Shown here in pieces: positions 27,956 to 32,780 of a stretch of DNA of 39,477 nt. The translations under genes were made by a program, and so were the position numbers. Below the pieces are notes generated by a model that ran no database searches, had not been told where the DNA came from, and was given only the letters and a program-made list of their open reading frames with translations. The stretch is from Acidimicrobiia bacterium (GTDB lineage Bacteria; Actinomycetota; Acidimicrobiia; Acidimicrobiales; CATQHL01), in contig VXNF01000094.1 in NCBI GenBank assembly GCA_009840735.1, positions 1 through 39,477 on the forward strand. The letters are read 5' to 3'. Numbering within the stretch: the stretch's first letter is position 1; every line of letters begins with the position of its first letter.

Positions 27956-28924
27956 CTATACTGTGTGTGTGAGCGAGTTCCGACGGCCGCAGGTGGCGAC
28001 GATCGTCGAGCGGTTGGCGGAGCTGCCGGACTCGAAACGGTCGAAGAACTCCGGCATGACCTGCGGAACGATGCGGATGCCGACTTCCTGCTCGCGTACG
28101 AGGTCGCAGAGCTTTTCGCCATCGATCAGATCGACCATCGGAGTCGTGGCCTGCGATGCTCGGCGCGCTGCTGGCGTGTAGCGCCCGAGAGTCACCATGA
28201 TGGCTCGCTCCGCCCCCGCAACCTCGGCGTCCCGCTGGAACAGCGCCACCTCCTGACGCCCGATTCCTGCCGAGGAGGCAGGGTTGTAGCGCTTCACTTG
28301 GACGGCGACCTTGGCAGAGAGAACCGGCGAGATCGGGGCTACGCCGATCCCATCGATCCCCTCGTCTCCCGAACCGCCCACATGCTCCAGCTCCAGGTCG
28401 AAGGAGCGAAGCAGGTAGAGCACGAAGTGTTCGAACGCCGTCGGCGACATCGAGTGGAGTCGGTCCAACAGCGCGTCGCGCCATTCCGTTGCTTCCCTCG
28501 CGTCGTCATGCGGCAGGTCGTCCTCATCTTCGGCTGTTTCGTCGTCCGACGGTTGGGACGAGGCGGCTCGCCTAGCTGTCGCCGAGGTCTCTCGTCGCAG
28601 GTCCCGGAGCCGCTCAACGGCCTGGTTCTCTGGCAGGGCGAGGATCTCGCGCCCCAGTGGCGTCAGCAGGTACAGGCCTCGCCGGGGTTGTTCCAACGCT
28701 CCGAAGGTCTTGCAGTCGGAGCGAGCCCAGCTGATCCGGTCCAAGAGGATGAAGTCCCCGCTCTTCGGATACCTGAGCGCGAGCAACTCCTCCGATGGGT
28801 TGAGCGTCTCGAGAACCGCCTCGCGAATTTGGCGGGTCTGCGCCGACCCTCCCAACTCCTCGACTTCCCGGAGGATCGGGAGCAGCAAGTCGAACGAAGT
28901 AGGCAGGTCATCCTTGGTGGCCAC
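27956..28924 (-). CDS. Mrr-type restriction endonuclease with read-through C-terminus
   Basis: The 322-residue protein has an Mrr N-terminal winged-helix domain (about 1-95, DDLPTSFDLLLPILREVEEL), an acidic linker (DDETAEDEDD), and the Mrr catalytic domain from about 160. There GDEGIDGIG and VAVQVKRY give the D...QxK variant of the PD-(D/E)xK site. Mrr enzymes cut modified or foreign DNA. The natural end is probably near FFDRFE; the last 24 residues or so are encoded by the antisense of an ATPase stub and look acquired by loss of the stop. GTG 28924 follows a TAGCGT box by seven bases, so longer upstream starts are rejected. Confidence 0.82.
   Translation of the reverse strand: MATKDDLPTSFDLLLPILREVEELGGSAQTRQIREAVLETLNPSEELLALRYPKSGDFILLDRISWARSDCKTFGALEQPRRGLYLLTPLGREILALPENQAVERLRDLRRETSATARRAASSQPSDDETAEDEDDLPHDDAREATEWRDALLDRLHSMSPTAFEHFVLYLLRSFDLELEHVGGSGDEGIDGIGVAPISPVLSAKVAVQVKRYNPASSAGIGRQEVALFQRDAEVAGAERAIMVTLGRYTPAARRASQATTPMVDLIDGEKLCDLVREQEVGIRIVPQVMPEFFDRFESGSSANRSTIVATCGRRNSLTHTV
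27957..27962 (+). promoter_or_regulatory. -10 element (TATACT) of leaderless ATPase remnant
   Basis: TATACT is followed by six bases and the GTG at 27969, the best -10 in the window. It now points into the 3' end of the opposite-strand Mrr gene and so would yield antisense RNA. Confidence 0.55.
27969..28028 (+). pseudogene. N-terminal stub of a DUF4143-type AAA ATPase
   Basis: The frame from GTG 27969 encodes SEFRRPQVATIVERLAELP, closely resembling the start of DUF4143-family ATPases (RPQV...RLAEPRRFIQVxxGPRQVGKTT). The expected GPRQVGKT P-loop never appears. From about 28020 the DNA instead reads as the reverse complement of the Mrr C-terminus (the FFDRFE stretch). The 3' boundary given is approximate. 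I infer a deletion or rearrangement that removed all but the first 18-20 codons. The promoter is intact. Confidence 0.45.
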
Positions 28925-28931
28925 AGACGCC

Positions 28932-28937
28932 ACGCTA
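28932..28937 (-). promoter_or_regulatory. -10 element (TAGCGT, minus strand) of leaderless Mrr gene
   Basis: On the minus strand TAGCGT is followed by seven bases and the GTG at 28924. A second GTG at 28933 overlaps the box and cannot be the start if this promoter is used. Confidence 0.5.
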
Positions 28938-29254
28938 CAGCTGCGTAGCCTGGCACCTCGTGTCCCGCCGCTGGCCGACGCGGCGTTGCGGATCGGCACT
29001 GAAGGTTCACGAGAGGTGCCGCCTTGGTCTCAATGGCTACGAAGCGACCGTCGGTGGCCTCTCTACTAGTAGATTCGTCCGAGTCCTACTGGTAGATTTG
29101 TCCGGCTTCTAATGATCGTTTTGTCCGACGTCGACAGGTCGGAGCGTCCGCTCGGCGAGTTGGCGGATTCTGTTGGGGGCGCTGTGGAGGACGTTGGCCT
29201 CGGGTTCCTCTCGTCGCGTTGACGCCGGATCGCGGCGGTGTCACACTCGGCAGC
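28938..29254. other. Gene-poor stretch with inverted and direct repeats
   Basis: No convincing gene lies here. GGCACCTCGTG (28952-28962) recurs inverted as CACGAG-AG-GTGCC (29008-29020) with a two-base insertion. Three 23-base direct repeats follow at 29070-29138. A 36-codon ORF (29112-29222) is open but unsupported. Confidence 0.4.
29070..29138. repeat. Three tandem imperfect 23-bp repeats with GTCCG core
   Basis: The units are 29070-29092, 29093-29115 and 29116-29138. Units one and two begin TAGATTCGTCCG and TAGATTTGTCCG; unit three has TCGTTTTGTCCG. The GTCCG cores start at 29077, 29100 and 29123, exactly 23 bases apart, and there is a CTACTAGTAG palindrome at 29063-29072. Regularly spaced short repeats occur at ends of IS21-like elements and in regulator-binding arrays. 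No transposase is adjacent, so a transposon-end remnant is only a hypothesis. Confidence 0.55.
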
Positions 29255-29792: not shown

Positions 29793-29922
29793 CTGTCCGC
29801 GTCGCGGCCTACAGGGTGGATGGCAGGCCATCCGCCGATCGCGCCACCGACGCGGCGGAACTCGCTGGGAGTGGCGTGTCGCCCATGTAGTCGGCGTCAC
29901 GCATCGGGTGCATACTGCTCCC

Positions 29923-30153
29923 GTGAAGGCGGTGACGATCACGATCCCCGCGGAGTTGGACGCTGAGGCTGCGGCCGAGGCGCGGCGGCTCGGGATTTCC
30001 AAGTCCGCACTAATCAGGCGAGGCTTGGAGGCTGTTCTGCCCAGCGATCGGCTCGACACGGGATCCGATCCTTGGCGCGACCTTGCCGGGTTTGGCAGCC
30101 GGGGCCTCAGTGTTGCGCCGGGCGAGATCGACACGGTCGGCTACGAGTCGTGA
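29923..30153 (+). CDS. Ribbon-helix-helix (CopG-type) antitoxin
   Basis: The 76-residue protein begins MKAVTITIPAELDAEAAAEA and continues RRLGISKSALIRRGLEA, a standard RHH fold: a short strand that pairs in a dimer to contact DNA, then two helices. The C-terminal half (SDPWRDLAGFGSRG) is of the kind that wraps a PIN toxin. The GTG at 29923 is preferred to one 15 bases upstream because the peptide then begins exactly at the RHH strand, and CATACT sits six bases before it. Its TGA overlaps the GTG of the PIN remnant (GTGA), the classic antitoxin-toxin arrangement. It would repress its own promoter. Confidence 0.8.
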   Translation: MKAVTITIPAELDAEAAAEARRLGISKSALIRRGLEAVLPSDRLDTGSDPWRDLAGFGSRGLSVAPGEIDTVGYES

Positions 30154-30278
30154 AGTTCGCTGACACGAGTTGGTGGGTGGCCTGAACCCCACCCGTTGAC
30201 GCCCGCCATTTGGAGGCAATGGAGATGCTTGCCCGGATCGGCTCCGGCGAGCAGGTCCTGACGACGACGCGCTCGTGA
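30150..30278 (+). pseudogene. Decayed PIN-domain (VapC-like) toxin
   Basis: The frame opens VKFADTSWWVA with the first PIN acidic residue (Asp5 region), then hits TGA at 30183-30185. The same frame continues TPPVDARHLEAMEMLARIGS and EQVLTTTRS, as in PIN toxins, to a second stop at 30276-30278. The TGA stands where Trp (TGG) is common in this family. The central glutamate helix and all later acidic residues are missing, so this is a 5' fragment with a nonsense codon. The RNase toxin is inactive; the antitoxin upstream remains intact. Confidence 0.65.
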
Positions 30279-30426
30279 GCGTCGCGGCCGATCGGACCGA
30301 GCGATTCCTCCAAGACAACCCGGCAGGGCCGCTCTGGGTGACCGTGGGGTTCGCCTCGGCGTCTCGCACGGGGCGGTCTGCGGGACGCGCTGCGCCGGGT
30401 CTTGCCGCGGGAGCGGCTGTTGTGGG
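30279..30426 (+). other. Gene debris, possibly from a PLD-like nuclease
   Basis: From GTG 30275 a frame reads AADRTERFLQDNPAGPLWVT followed by VGFAS, a pattern I associate with starts of phospholipase D-like nucleases found beside helicases (FLxDNPxGxLWVxVGYAS). After that the reading becomes unlikely, while a neighbouring frame has GLRDALRRVLPRERLLWVS. This looks like joined fragments and not a gene. The PLD suggestion is weak. Confidence 0.25.
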
Positions 30427-30927
30427 TCAGTCGCCTTCTTGGGTCCGCGGGTGATCGCGGAGTTCGGACATTGTGAGGCGCTGGCCCTTGATGCGGTTGC
30501 AGGCCGAGCAGAGGAGCTGCAGGTTCTCGTCTGCGTCAAGGCCGCCCTTGGATCGGGGTGTGATGTGGTCGAGGTCGAAGTCGTCGAAGTACTTGGGGCG
30601 GTCGCATCCGGGGCATGGGCGTCGCTTGCCGTCGCCCAGCTCGGCCCAGCGGATGAACCGGATACGCGGCGAGCGCGTCGGCCGGTCGGGGTCGGTGCGT
30701 CGGGGTGGCCGCGGCGGCAGGTGGAGCGACGGCAGCCCTTCGCGCAGCCCGTCCAAGTCGACGTTGTGGACCGCGGCGTCCGATCCGAGCGGTGCGTTGT
30801 ACAGCCGGTTCGAGTTGAACGGTGGATCGAGGCAGATCAGATCGATGCACTCAGAGTTGATGCCGCGCAGCACCTTCAAGTTGTCGTCGATCCACAAGGT
30901 GCGGTTCAAGAAGTTGGGATTGCCCAC
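30427..30927 (-). pseudogene. Internally deleted adenine-methyltransferase/HNH gene
   Basis: The 166-residue reading frame joins two ends of a known architecture. Residues 1-52 are the start of a site-specific DNA methyltransferase (NPNFLNRTLWIDDNLKVLRG, with the catalytic motif DPPFNSNR at 34-41). From about residue 69 it is the HNH tail (LPPRPPRRTD, CPGC, LDHITPRSKGG, ENLQLLCSACNRIKG). The SAM-binding FxGxG motif and target-recognition region of the methyltransferase are absent. The frame is still open, so a small HNH protein could be made, with His121 and the Cys105/108/140/143 zinc pairs in place. The GTG at 30927 follows a TAAAAT box by eight bases. Confidence 0.7.
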
Positions 30928-30935
30928 GGGCTGCG

Positions 30936-30941
30936 ATTTTA
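30936..30941 (-). promoter_or_regulatory. -10 element (TAAAAT, minus strand) for methylase-HNH remnant
   Basis: On the minus strand TAAAAT is followed by eight bases and the GTG at 30927. The remnant thus keeps a plausible promoter. Confidence 0.5.
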
Positions 30942-31012
30942 GAGCCGCCCGCCGCCGGTATCGGACCGCGGGCGCCGGTTCCGCCACCGCCCACCCCCGG
31001 TGCGGGATGCCG

Positions 31013-31018
31013 TAGCCT
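31013..31018 (+). promoter_or_regulatory. -10 element (TAGCCT) upstream of AlbA ATPase gene
   Basis: TAGCCT precedes a 7-codon leaderless-type ORF (GTG 31024 to TGA 31045-31047), whose stop overlaps the GTG at 31044 by GTGA. GGGGAG (31033-31038) is the likely Shine-Dalgarno for the main gene. Confidence 0.4.
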
Positions 31019-31043
31019 CTCGGGTGAGCACCGGGGAGCACCT

Positions 31044-32780
31044 GTGACGTACAGCGACGAGGAAATCAGGCGCCGGCTCGCGTTGGGCGAGGACAGCGGG
31101 TGGGAGTTCAAGGCGGTTGAGTTCGCCGGGGACAGGCCCAAGAGCCCGAGCCGCGACGATCTGGCCGACGAGATCGCCGCGTTCGCCAACGCGGACGGGG
31201 GCACGCTGCTCTGCGGCGTCAGCGACGACGGGCGACCTCAGGACATGTCGCGCCGGCAAATCGTGGCGTTGGACAACTTGCTGGTCGAGGTAGCCACGGA
31301 CGCTGTCCGCCCACCAGTCCGCATCCGCACCCATCACCGGCAAGTCGACGGGGCGGCACTCCTGTTGGTCTCCATTCCGGAGGGCGATGCGCTGCACGAC
31401 AGCCCCGGCGGAGGCTATGTCCGCGTCGGCGGCACGAAACGGAGGATGACCAGCGACGAGCGGTTGCGTCTCTCGCAGCGGCGGGGGCAGGCGCGTTTCC
31501 GGTCCTACGACGAGCGGACGGTTCCCGGCACCGGCTTCGAGACTCTCGAGGAAACTCTGTGGCGTCCCATGCTCAGTGCCGAGGGATCGGCCGAACCAGA
31601 GGCGGCGCTGAGCAAACTGGCGCTCCTGTCTAACGACGAAGCGGGCGTCCAGCGCGCCACGGTCGCCGGCGTGCTGCTGTGTACCCAGAACCCCGAGCGA
31701 TGGCTCCCTGGCGCCGCCATCACGGCGACGCTGTACCGCGGCGGGGACCGTACCTCGGGCCAGATCGACGCGCAGGAGATCACTGGTCCGCTGAACCGCC
31801 AGATCGGTGCCGCGATGGCGTTCGTGGTTCGCAATATGCGCGTCGCCGCCCGCAAGGCGCCCGCGCGGGTCGATCTGCCCCAGTACAGCGAGAGAGCGCT
31901 CTTTGAGGCCATCGTCAACGCTGTTGTGCATCGCGACTATGCGGTGCGGGTCAGTCGGATTCGCCTCTCGATGTTCGAGGACCGCTTGGAGTTGCAGTCG
32001 CCGGGCTCGTTGCCGAACAACTTGACCCTGGAGAGCATGCAGACACGGCAAGCGACGCGCAACGAGGTGTTGGCCTCGGTGCTAGGGCGGCTGCCGGTGG
32101 CGGGAATCCGGGGGTCAGAGGAGAGGAGCTACATCATGGAGCGCCGGGGTGACGGCGTCCCGGTCATCCTGCGCCGCACGCGAGAACTCTGCGGCGCCAC
32201 ACCCGAATACCGTCTGATCGACGGTGCCGAAGTGCTACTCACCGTGCCTGCGGCGCCTTTGGAGGCGAGCGCCGCCCGCGCCGTCATCACCGTGCGATCC
32301 GCTGGCCGGCCCCTGCCAGGCGCCGACGTGTTGGCGCTATTCCCCAACGGGACCTACCAGCGTGCCTCCGCCGACGAGAACGGCGAGGCCGCCGTCGAGC
32401 TGCACACGACTCACCTCCCGATGGCGGTGTTCGCCGCCGCTGCGGGCTACGGCGGCCGCGTCGTGCGGGACTGGGTGCCGAGCCGCCGAGCGTTGGCTGT
32501 GGAACTCGAGGCCCTGCAAGCCGGCGGAAGTGTCGTGTTCGCCGAGTCCGCTGGCTACCTCCCGCGCCTGAAGGGCAGGCTGAACCCCGTACGTGACAGT
32601 CACGACCGCACCTACCTCTACGCCTCGGACATCGCCATCGACGGCGGCAAGAACCAGCCCGTGCATTTCGCTCTTGGCGAGGACCTGCGCCTCACCGACG
32701 CCGACGGTGCCGGGGCGACGGTTCGCATCGTCGATCTCGTCGGCCGATCGGCGCTTCTGGAATACCGTCCGGTCACCTGA
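31044..32780 (+). CDS. AlbA_2/Schlafen-type ATPase with carboxypeptidase-regulatory-like C-terminal extension
   Basis: The 578-residue protein has an AlbA_2 (Schlafen-like) N-terminal domain: WEFKAVEF (20-27), DDLADEIAAFANADGGTLL and GVSDDG. An HATPase-related region (RecG-like C-terminal ATP-binding) follows with EAIVNAVVHRDY (288-299) and FEDRLELQSPGSLP. These two are usual in accessory ATP-binding proteins linked to regulation or defence. Beyond residue 410 lie about 165 extra residues: a beta-rich carboxypeptidase-regulatory-like unit (413-470, AVITVRSAGRPLPGADVLAL) and an unrecognised tail. It has no membrane segment. It is divergent from the methylase-HNH remnant and converges on the ThDP gene. 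Function is unproven. Confidence 0.82.
   Translation: MTYSDEEIRRRLALGEDSGWEFKAVEFAGDRPKSPSRDDLADEIAAFANADGGTLLCGVSDDGRPQDMSRRQIVALDNLLVEVATDAVRPPVRIRTHHRQVDGAALLLVSIPEGDALHDSPGGGYVRVGGTKRRMTSDERLRLSQRRGQARFRSYDERTVPGTGFETLEETLWRPMLSAEGSAEPEAALSKLALLSNDEAGVQRATVAGVLLCTQNPERWLPGAAITATLYRGGDRTSGQIDAQEITGPLNRQIGAAMAFVVRNMRVAARKAPARVDLPQYSERALFEAIVNAVVHRDYAVRVSRIRLSMFEDRLELQSPGSLPNNLTLESMQTRQATRNEVLASVLGRLPVAGIRGSEERSYIMERRGDGVPVILRRTRELCGATPEYRLIDGAEVLLTVPAAPLEASAARAVITVRSAGRPLPGADVLALFPNGTYQRASADENGEAAVELHTTHLPMAVFAAAAGYGGRVVRDWVPSRRALAVELEALQAGGSVVFAESAGYLPRLKGRLNPVRDSHDRTYLYASDIAIDGGKNQPVHFALGEDLRLTDADGAGATVRIVDLVGRSALLEYRPVT

Follow-up and report, generated by a model that had tools for sequence, protein, structure and literature searches.

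The window, i.e., the whole 39,477-nucleotide stretch of DNA from an Acidimicrobiia bacterium that was analysed here, carries on its forward strand a gene whose predicted product joins a Schlafen-type nuclease domain and a GHKL ATPase domain to a two-part, beta-rich C-terminal module. The gene, its parts and its neighbours on one side are as follows:

27956-28999, minus strand: neighbouring gene for an Mrr-type restriction endonuclease, apparently intact (Mrr_cat E 1.6e-22, Mrr_N E 1.1e-13, PADLOC mREase_IV E 3.8e-25)
29908-30153, plus strand: neighbouring gene for an RHH antitoxin, VapB/BrnA-like (domain searches)
30427-31041, minus strand: neighbouring frame with a weak DNA-methyltransferase-like start (DPPF motif; E about 5e-4 to 2e-3) and an in-frame HNH domain (E 5.4e-12)
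31033-31038, plus strand: GGGGAG, ribosome-binding-site-like, 5 nt ahead of the GTG (read from the sequence)
31044-32780, plus strand: coding sequence of 578 residues with a GTG start, comprising SLFN_AlbA_2, GHKL ATPase, a transthyretin-like unit and a conserved C-terminal beta unit
31089-31451, plus strand: SLFN_AlbA_2 domain, residues 16-136 (Pfam PF04326, E 2.5e-17, 63.9 bits against a cut-off of 25.3)
31089-31112, plus strand: Schlafen nuclease motif ExxxxExK, E16/E21/K23 (EDSGWEFK; sequence, and profile alignment to Schlafen 8/5yd0)
31905-31940, plus strand: GHKL N-box-like EAIVNAVVHRDY, residues 288-299 (sequence; pattern in 65 of 75 rows)
31956-32222, plus strand: HATPase_c_4 (GHKL) domain, residues 305-393 (Pfam PF13749, E 2.6e-17, 63 bits against a cut-off of 26)
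32268-32522, plus strand: module part 1, transthyretin-like beta sandwich, residues 409-493 (AlphaFold2 model; Z 11.0 to 3e8v)
32523-32777, plus strand: module part 2, conserved beta unit, residues 494-578 (consensus GRLNPxxDxxDRTYLYAxNIAIxxGxxQPVxF)

The reading frame at 31044-32780 is uninterrupted over its 578 residues, its GTG start agrees with the consensus start in 46 relatives, and its codon-position GC (0.71/0.51/0.84) is coding-like, all of which bears out the claim of an earlier sequence-only reading that the gene is intact. That reading had further presented it as the one gene left intact in a region of damaged defence genes, which holds for the studied gene but not for its surroundings, as the Mrr-type gene at 27956-28999 is apparently intact too. 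The frame at 30427-31041 is probably a deletion remnant. Downstream of the RHH antitoxin gene, a PIN-like sequence interrupted by stop codons and frame shifts can be made out by eye (29908-30540, plus strand, with the antitoxin included). A chance or frame artefact was rejected as an origin of the studied gene on account of its start, its codon-position GC and the 52-68% conservation of its extension; likewise, a 370-residue minus-strand ORF that overlaps it (30939-32051) was taken as spurious, its codon-position GC being mirrored. The whole 578-residue protein gave no NCBIfam match at E <= 0.1.

In the body of the protein, the GHKL domain lies C-terminal to the AlbA_2 domain, the order that characterises the Schlafen-GHKL-wHTH architecture, and two features of bacterial SLFN_AlbA_2 RNases, a domain score above the curated cut-off and the ExxxxExK motif, are present; residues 288-299 correspond to what we take to be the N-box. 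In a full-length model (pLDDT 87.8, pTM 0.58), residues 1-162 resemble Schlafen/SAMD9 nuclease domains (Z 9-10) and residues 223-410 resemble histidine kinases (Z about 9). Further, a profile of 47 rows retrieved 3lmm at E 1.4e-10 and Schlafen chains, with 5yd0 at E 7.7e-6, and in its alignment E16, E21 and K23 fall on the Schlafen motif. According to PMC12215978, this motif is defined as ExxxxExK, and SLFN14 is inactivated when the two glutamates and the lysine of the motif are changed to alanine. Among the 75 AlbA-type rows whose module starts at residue 395 or later, a pattern search found ExxxxExK in 72, the strict GHKL N-box pattern in 65 and an RRGDGV-like motif in 71. The three rows lacking ExxxxExK comprise two with substitutions (L027 and L042) and one in which the nuclease start is replaced by HsdM (L094), losses that would fit a protein able to work without RNase activity. 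The sole PHROGs match, 'DNA helicase' (E 7.4e-47), covers residues 24-391 and leaves the module without any, and PADLOC matched only three Argonaute-type models on this protein (best E 3.6e-13), all of them outside the module.

The C-terminal module (170 residues, 409-578) was studied on an AlphaFold2 model of residues 400-578, which was predicted with confidence (mean pLDDT 93, pTM 0.86) and is all beta, thereby supplying the structure prediction that the sequence-only reading had proposed as a check. The model alignment comprised the window and 79 of 80 relatives (L082 was left out), and the extension is 52-68% identical across these 79. Residues 409-493 align with 3e8v (VIA-align Z 11.0, rmsd 2.0, 76 aligned residues) and with 5aq0, the transthyretin-like domain of carboxypeptidase D (Z 10.8, rmsd 2.0, 77 aligned), so that in the model the sandwich matches solved transthyretin-like members over most of the domain; Foldseek alone is weak on the module model, with one match at E <= 0.001. 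In sequence searches, CarboxypepD_reg (PF13620) matched residues 417-475 at E 0.0036 (18.1 bits, under the Pfam cut-off of 32.3) and reached E <= 0.001 in 11 of 80 relatives. The general outline drawn from the sequence, AlbA/Schlafen and HATPase domains followed by an extension with a regulatory fold, is thus confirmed by Pfam and by the extension model; of the carboxypeptidase-regulatory-like unit placed at 413-470, the fold stands in the model, while the Pfam score is below the cut-off and the boundary is better set at 409-493.

The roughly 100 residues after position 470 that had been described as unplaceable form instead a second all-beta unit (494-578), which, judging from residue conservation, is the better-conserved half of the module: over 109 modules, 35 columns are at least 95% conserved, 25 of them in 494-578 and 10 in the transthyretin half. 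Likewise, the window module and that of a TIR-containing form described below share 21 of 78 positions (27%) in the first half and 42 of 84 (50%) in the second. Pfam gave no match at E <= 10 for residues 494-578 of the window protein and a single ApaG match (E 0.2) for the second unit of a relative, and a PDB sequence-profile search with the module reached a best E of only 0.23. Rows of the PDB fold search mainly cover residues 10-94 of the module model and hardly reach its second half, hence no new fold is claimed for 494-578; in BFVD, proteins of phage tails and baseplates and surface-type proteins make up most of the best rows. From residue 409 onwards the C-terminus is modelled as all beta with no winged helix, and, on the model, the window protein is therefore a variant rather than an exact instance of the Schlafen-GHKL-wHTH architecture.

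A whole-protein search of 60 related genomes gave a match in 17, with full-length or near full-length copies in G007, G005 and G043 (58-63% identity), and a second copy is found in the source genome itself (contig C106, 60% identity). The source genome (2.7 Mb, 84% complete) has 11 SLFN_AlbA_2 matches, three of them on that same contig. A scan of the genome_contigs collection with two exact peptide patterns, derived from seven sequences belonging to the same order as the window, returned 208 confirmed stretches, the best 80 of which (loci L021-L100) span 13 phyla by title; distant free-living forms can escape such a scan, as did the Sinorhizobium form presented below. Of the 80 listed relatives, 46 from 13 phyla were aligned over their full length and show the entire architecture, with 53-72% identity; it is not a one-off fusion. 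Pfam searches on the 80 frames found HATPase_c_4 in 75, AlbA_2 in 64, CarboxypepD_reg in 11, DUF4143/AAA_14 in 2 and HsdM in 1. Furthermore, profile surveys gave matches in 25 of 397 genomes and 6 of 203 genera of the source's order (one of the 25 matches being weak, E 6.4e-7, to a PKD-domain protein), in 2 of 396 genomes of the source's phylum, both already known, and in 3 of 398 genomes of the phylum of G764, namely G764 itself, a frame-broken remnant (L164) and one weak match (E 7.7e-4). The architecture is widespread but patchy. The sequence-only reading had held that a widespread architecture with a known housekeeping role would speak against it; the first part is the case, with 13 phyla, patchiness notwithstanding, and no housekeeping link was seen among 74 loci with a called module gene. 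An origin as a phage or plasmid gene was rejected, since the module was absent from 50,697 phage records and, by the two peptide patterns, from viral_contigs, and occurred in 1 of 72,556 plasmid records.

On a quick tree of 47 chosen full-length rows, the 13 phylum labels need 24 changes, the minimum being 12; shuffled labels needed 32.6 on average and as few as 24 in 0 of 200 shuffles, and phyla are thus still clustered. The window row is one of 12 rows, drawn from several phyla, that make up a starred set, and has Chloroflexota and Deinococcota rows as its nearest. Forcing the 11 Actinomycetota-labelled rows together cost 45.9 log units (p-AU 0.033), in a test whose group was named after the module tree had been seen and which concerns more than the window row, as two other rows with that label, L118 and L121, are likewise placed outside the main clade. 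The label of the window and its order was itself assigned from the trees, in which the Acidimicrobiaceae loci L098 and L091 group with loci of that order. Altogether, the trees indicate that the gene has moved between phyla.

Habitat was judged from record titles only, for the best 80 of the 208 loci. Titles in the style of sponge-symbiont MAGs are found in 29 of the 80. The other 51 comprise jk18x/p16x titles (26), SB066x, Plut_, CO36, PCPOR, PNGco and ENA assemblies. Within the 29, title codes of 24 loci fit sponge species of PMC8163846 and five loci carry bin names of the Aplysina style; the accession and bin of four of these five (L024, L025, L050 and L070) appear in Table 2 of PMC5649159, and the fifth (L078, MPNB bin80) was not among the entries inspected. 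PMC8163846 and PMC5649159 describe restriction systems as enriched in sponge symbionts, and the former describes them as also laterally transferred. Since the pattern scan can miss distant free-living forms, we do not claim that the module is restricted to sponges.

The module also occurs beyond the Schlafen-GHKL proteins. BLAST found 12 loci in which an AAA_14-DUF4143 ATPase ends in the module (4 of them checked by Pfam), all 12 with a Walker-A-like motif; on the module tree this form needs three changes, of which well-supported branches force one, and independent fusions may have produced it. On a plasmid of Sinorhizobium chiapasense, WP_331375610.1 combines an AAA_31/ParA-like P-loop (KGGVGR, by eye), a TIR_2 domain (E 3.6e-15), the module (38.5% identity) and then a tail of about 100 residues (L131, 6582-8786). 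Its neighbours include a UvrD-helicase-domain protein, an AbiEii/AbiGii-family protein and several other TIR proteins, and one gene of the stretch matches patatin weakly (E 2.1e-5, under the cut-off). No signal peptide was recognised by eye in the window protein, the AAA_14 forms or the TIR form. Two further carriers are apparently membrane-bound or secreted: L123, with two apparent transmembrane helices followed by the module (by eye), and L159, from the same genome as L057 (Poribacterial record OX638316), with a signal or transmembrane segment (by eye), Dockerin_1 (E 5.1e-6) and the module. The latter lies on a long branch among Poribacterial AlbA modules in the module tree and looks like a late derivative. 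Variants of the main form include L067, a divergent GHKL protein with the module and a match under the Pfam cut-off, and L094 (3523-6480), in which one frame encodes HsdM followed by GHKL and the module but lacks the N-terminal Schlafen nuclease. About 300 residues without Pfam match precede AlbA_2 in L093 (5919-8519) and L097 (5943-8519), and may be real or a chance open frame. In the best 80 of the 208 loci the module is C-terminal or followed by a short tail only. The module thus behaves like an interchangeable part, being found also at the end of AAA_14-DUF4143 proteins, of a KGGVGR-TIR protein and of two proteins that are apparently secreted or bound to the membrane.

The genomic neighbourhood was surveyed by greedy gene calls on L021-L100, which returned 74 module genes (L061, L067, L073, L088, L089 and L091 were without one); more than 1 kb of upstream sequence was available in 67 of these 74 loci, some stretches being short. 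Neighbouring gene clusters were named by Pfam searches of one or two representatives each, and the representatives scanned include HsdM, a nucleotidyltransferase-HsdS fusion, HsdR, an NTase_sub_bind protein, TIR proteins and DUF4276. In 12 of the 74 loci a gene of the HsdM cluster overlaps the module gene in the ATGA manner, the last sense base of hsdM being the first base of the module gene start codon; a gene of the HsdM, HsdS or HsdR clusters is present somewhere in the stretch in 23 and in none of the other 51. Nucleotidyltransferases fused N-terminally to type I HsdS form a cluster in 23 of the 80 loci (two members checked by Pfam; examples are L100, 5134-6750, and L024, 8666-10282), and an NTase_sub_bind-type cluster, often just upstream of them, occurs in 10 loci. 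The window contig gave no match to the HsdM, HsdS or HsdR clusters at E <= 1e-6, which sets its copy apart from type I restriction-modification accessories: it is solitary, with no operon link. A restriction link as a property of the module itself was rejected, as a module-free relative on a Klebsiella plasmid shows the same link, lying in an HsdR-TrlF-AlbA-HsdS run; at the other three of the four plasmid relatives inspected (93 records had a match), no type I genes are annotated within 6 kb.

The position of the module at or near the C-terminus of unrelated N-terminal domains, and a conservation mostly within the one compact unit 494-578, would be expected of a docking adaptor that tethers different effectors (Schlafen-GHKL, AAA_14-DUF4143, TIR) to a common partner, as effector-associated domains (EADs) do. 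We regard this as unlikely, given that each of the 80 loci (3-16.5 kb) has one module and no second module protein alongside, that nine genomes (single-chromosome records) carry one or two copies each, one copy being a fragment, and that no gene cluster common to most solitary loci was seen by eye. Alternatively, the AlbA_2-GHKL protein (COG2865, presumably the label for Schlafen RNase-GHKL-wHTH proteins) could be an ordinary regulator acting on host nucleic acids or transcription, with a module that senses a metabolite and with no defence role. The retention of ExxxxExK in 72 of 75 rows, the overlap of hsdM with the module gene start in 12 of 74 loci, the apparent movement between phyla and a C-terminus modelled as all beta, with no DNA-binding winged helix, make this account unlikely in our view, even with 11 AlbA_2 matches in the source genome and 51 of 74 loci without restriction genes in its favour.

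Transthyretin-like folds are common in extracellular proteins, and many of the best PDB fold matches of the module are secreted or surface proteins; together with the signal or transmembrane segment (by eye) and Dockerin_1 of L159, they would suit a sorting or surface-anchoring tag. However, the window, AAA_14 and TIR forms carry domains linked to ATP or nucleic acids, as is typical of cytosolic proteins, with no signal peptide recognised by eye, and the dockerin form, placed by a long branch among Poribacterial AlbA modules, looks late-derived, which renders a role of this kind highly improbable.

The gene is best read as that of a putative defence protein with a new module for binding a ligand or a partner. 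The window protein would then be a defence effector of the Schlafen-RNase/GHKL type, with a module that senses or docks its trigger, a proposal to which we give slightly less than an even chance. In its favour are the domains, the ExxxxExK motif, the type I restriction genes near the module gene in 23 of 74 loci (overlapping hsdM in 12), the Schlafen RNases beside BREX loci in PMC12839542, the module on other N-termini and the spread over phyla. Against it stand the solitary window copy, the 51 of 74 loci and three of four plasmid relatives with no type I gene nearby, the PADLOC matches to Argonaute-type models only, the loss of ExxxxExK in 3 of 75 rows and the presence of the module at the end of L123 and L159, which have no effector domain. 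In this defence effector, the module, occupying the place of the winged helix found in some relatives, would recognise a partner protein or a product of phages or of damaged DNA; the GHKL domain would change state with ATP, and the AlbA_2 domain would then cut RNA (tRNA or rRNA) and stop growth. In some relatives, where its start overlaps the stop of hsdM, the protein would belong to a type I restriction operon as an integral accessory and act as a back-up when restriction fails. That the module replaces a wHTH draws on a minority of module-free relatives (a significant wHTH in one of five scanned, a weak one in a second) and on PMC12839542. More broadly, and still tentatively, residues 409-578 may constitute an exchangeable domain, as yet undescribed, that serves cytosolic defence proteins in trigger recognition (or docking). 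It would have been passed among many phyla of bacteria that live with animals, largely sponges, and have been joined to Schlafen RNases, to AAA_14-DUF4143 ATPases and to TIR proteins, with one signal for all; we hold this to be possible rather than probable. If so, the ligand of the module would explain what several unrelated immune effectors sense, including the AAA_14-DUF4143 ATPases, DUF4143 being of unknown function in Pfam, and the occurrence of one protein across 13 phyla, many copies of it in sponge symbionts, would mark immunity passed laterally within a holobiont.

With regard to known systems, the window protein is of a known kind, the Schlafen-GHKL proteins, and its new part is the C-terminal module, for which, as for the architecture, titles and abstract openings of the literature searched gave no name or description; the accessible parts of PMC5099237, PMC7641849 and PMC8875196 hold nothing on the window protein. 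The uncharacterized protein DIP2311 of Corynebacterium diphtheriae (3lmm) shares the AlbA_2 and GHKL core (362 residues, Z 23.6), yet the rmsd of 16.0 denotes a different domain placement, and the alignment extends only to residue 406 of the window protein, leaving the module unmatched. Carboxypeptidase regulatory-like or transthyretin-like domains (PF13620; 5aq0, 3e8v) share the fold of residues 409-493 (Z about 11); unlike PF13620 domains, the window unit scores below the Pfam cut-off and belongs to a protein with no recognised signal peptide, and the conserved second unit is left uncovered by matches such as 5aq0 and 3e8v. In PMC12839542, proteins with a Schlafen RNase, a minimal histidine kinase and a wHTH, located beside BREX loci, are described as back-up suicidal effectors. 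The window protein resembles these in its AlbA_2 domain with ExxxxExK, its GHKL domain and the defence-operon links of its relatives; in contrast, it has a beta module at 409-578 in place of a wHTH, and its copy is solitary. Lastly, EADs of conflict systems, as presented in PMC7159879, differ from the module, which is all beta and, in the 80 loci, occurs once per locus with no second copy on an adjacent gene; the main text of that article makes no mention of Schlafen, AlbA, transthyretin, prealbumin or DUF4143. The likeness to EADs lies in a small domain common to unrelated effectors and NTPases, a TIR protein included, which in the case of the module are AlbA-GHKL, AAA_14-DUF4143 and KGGVGR-TIR proteins.
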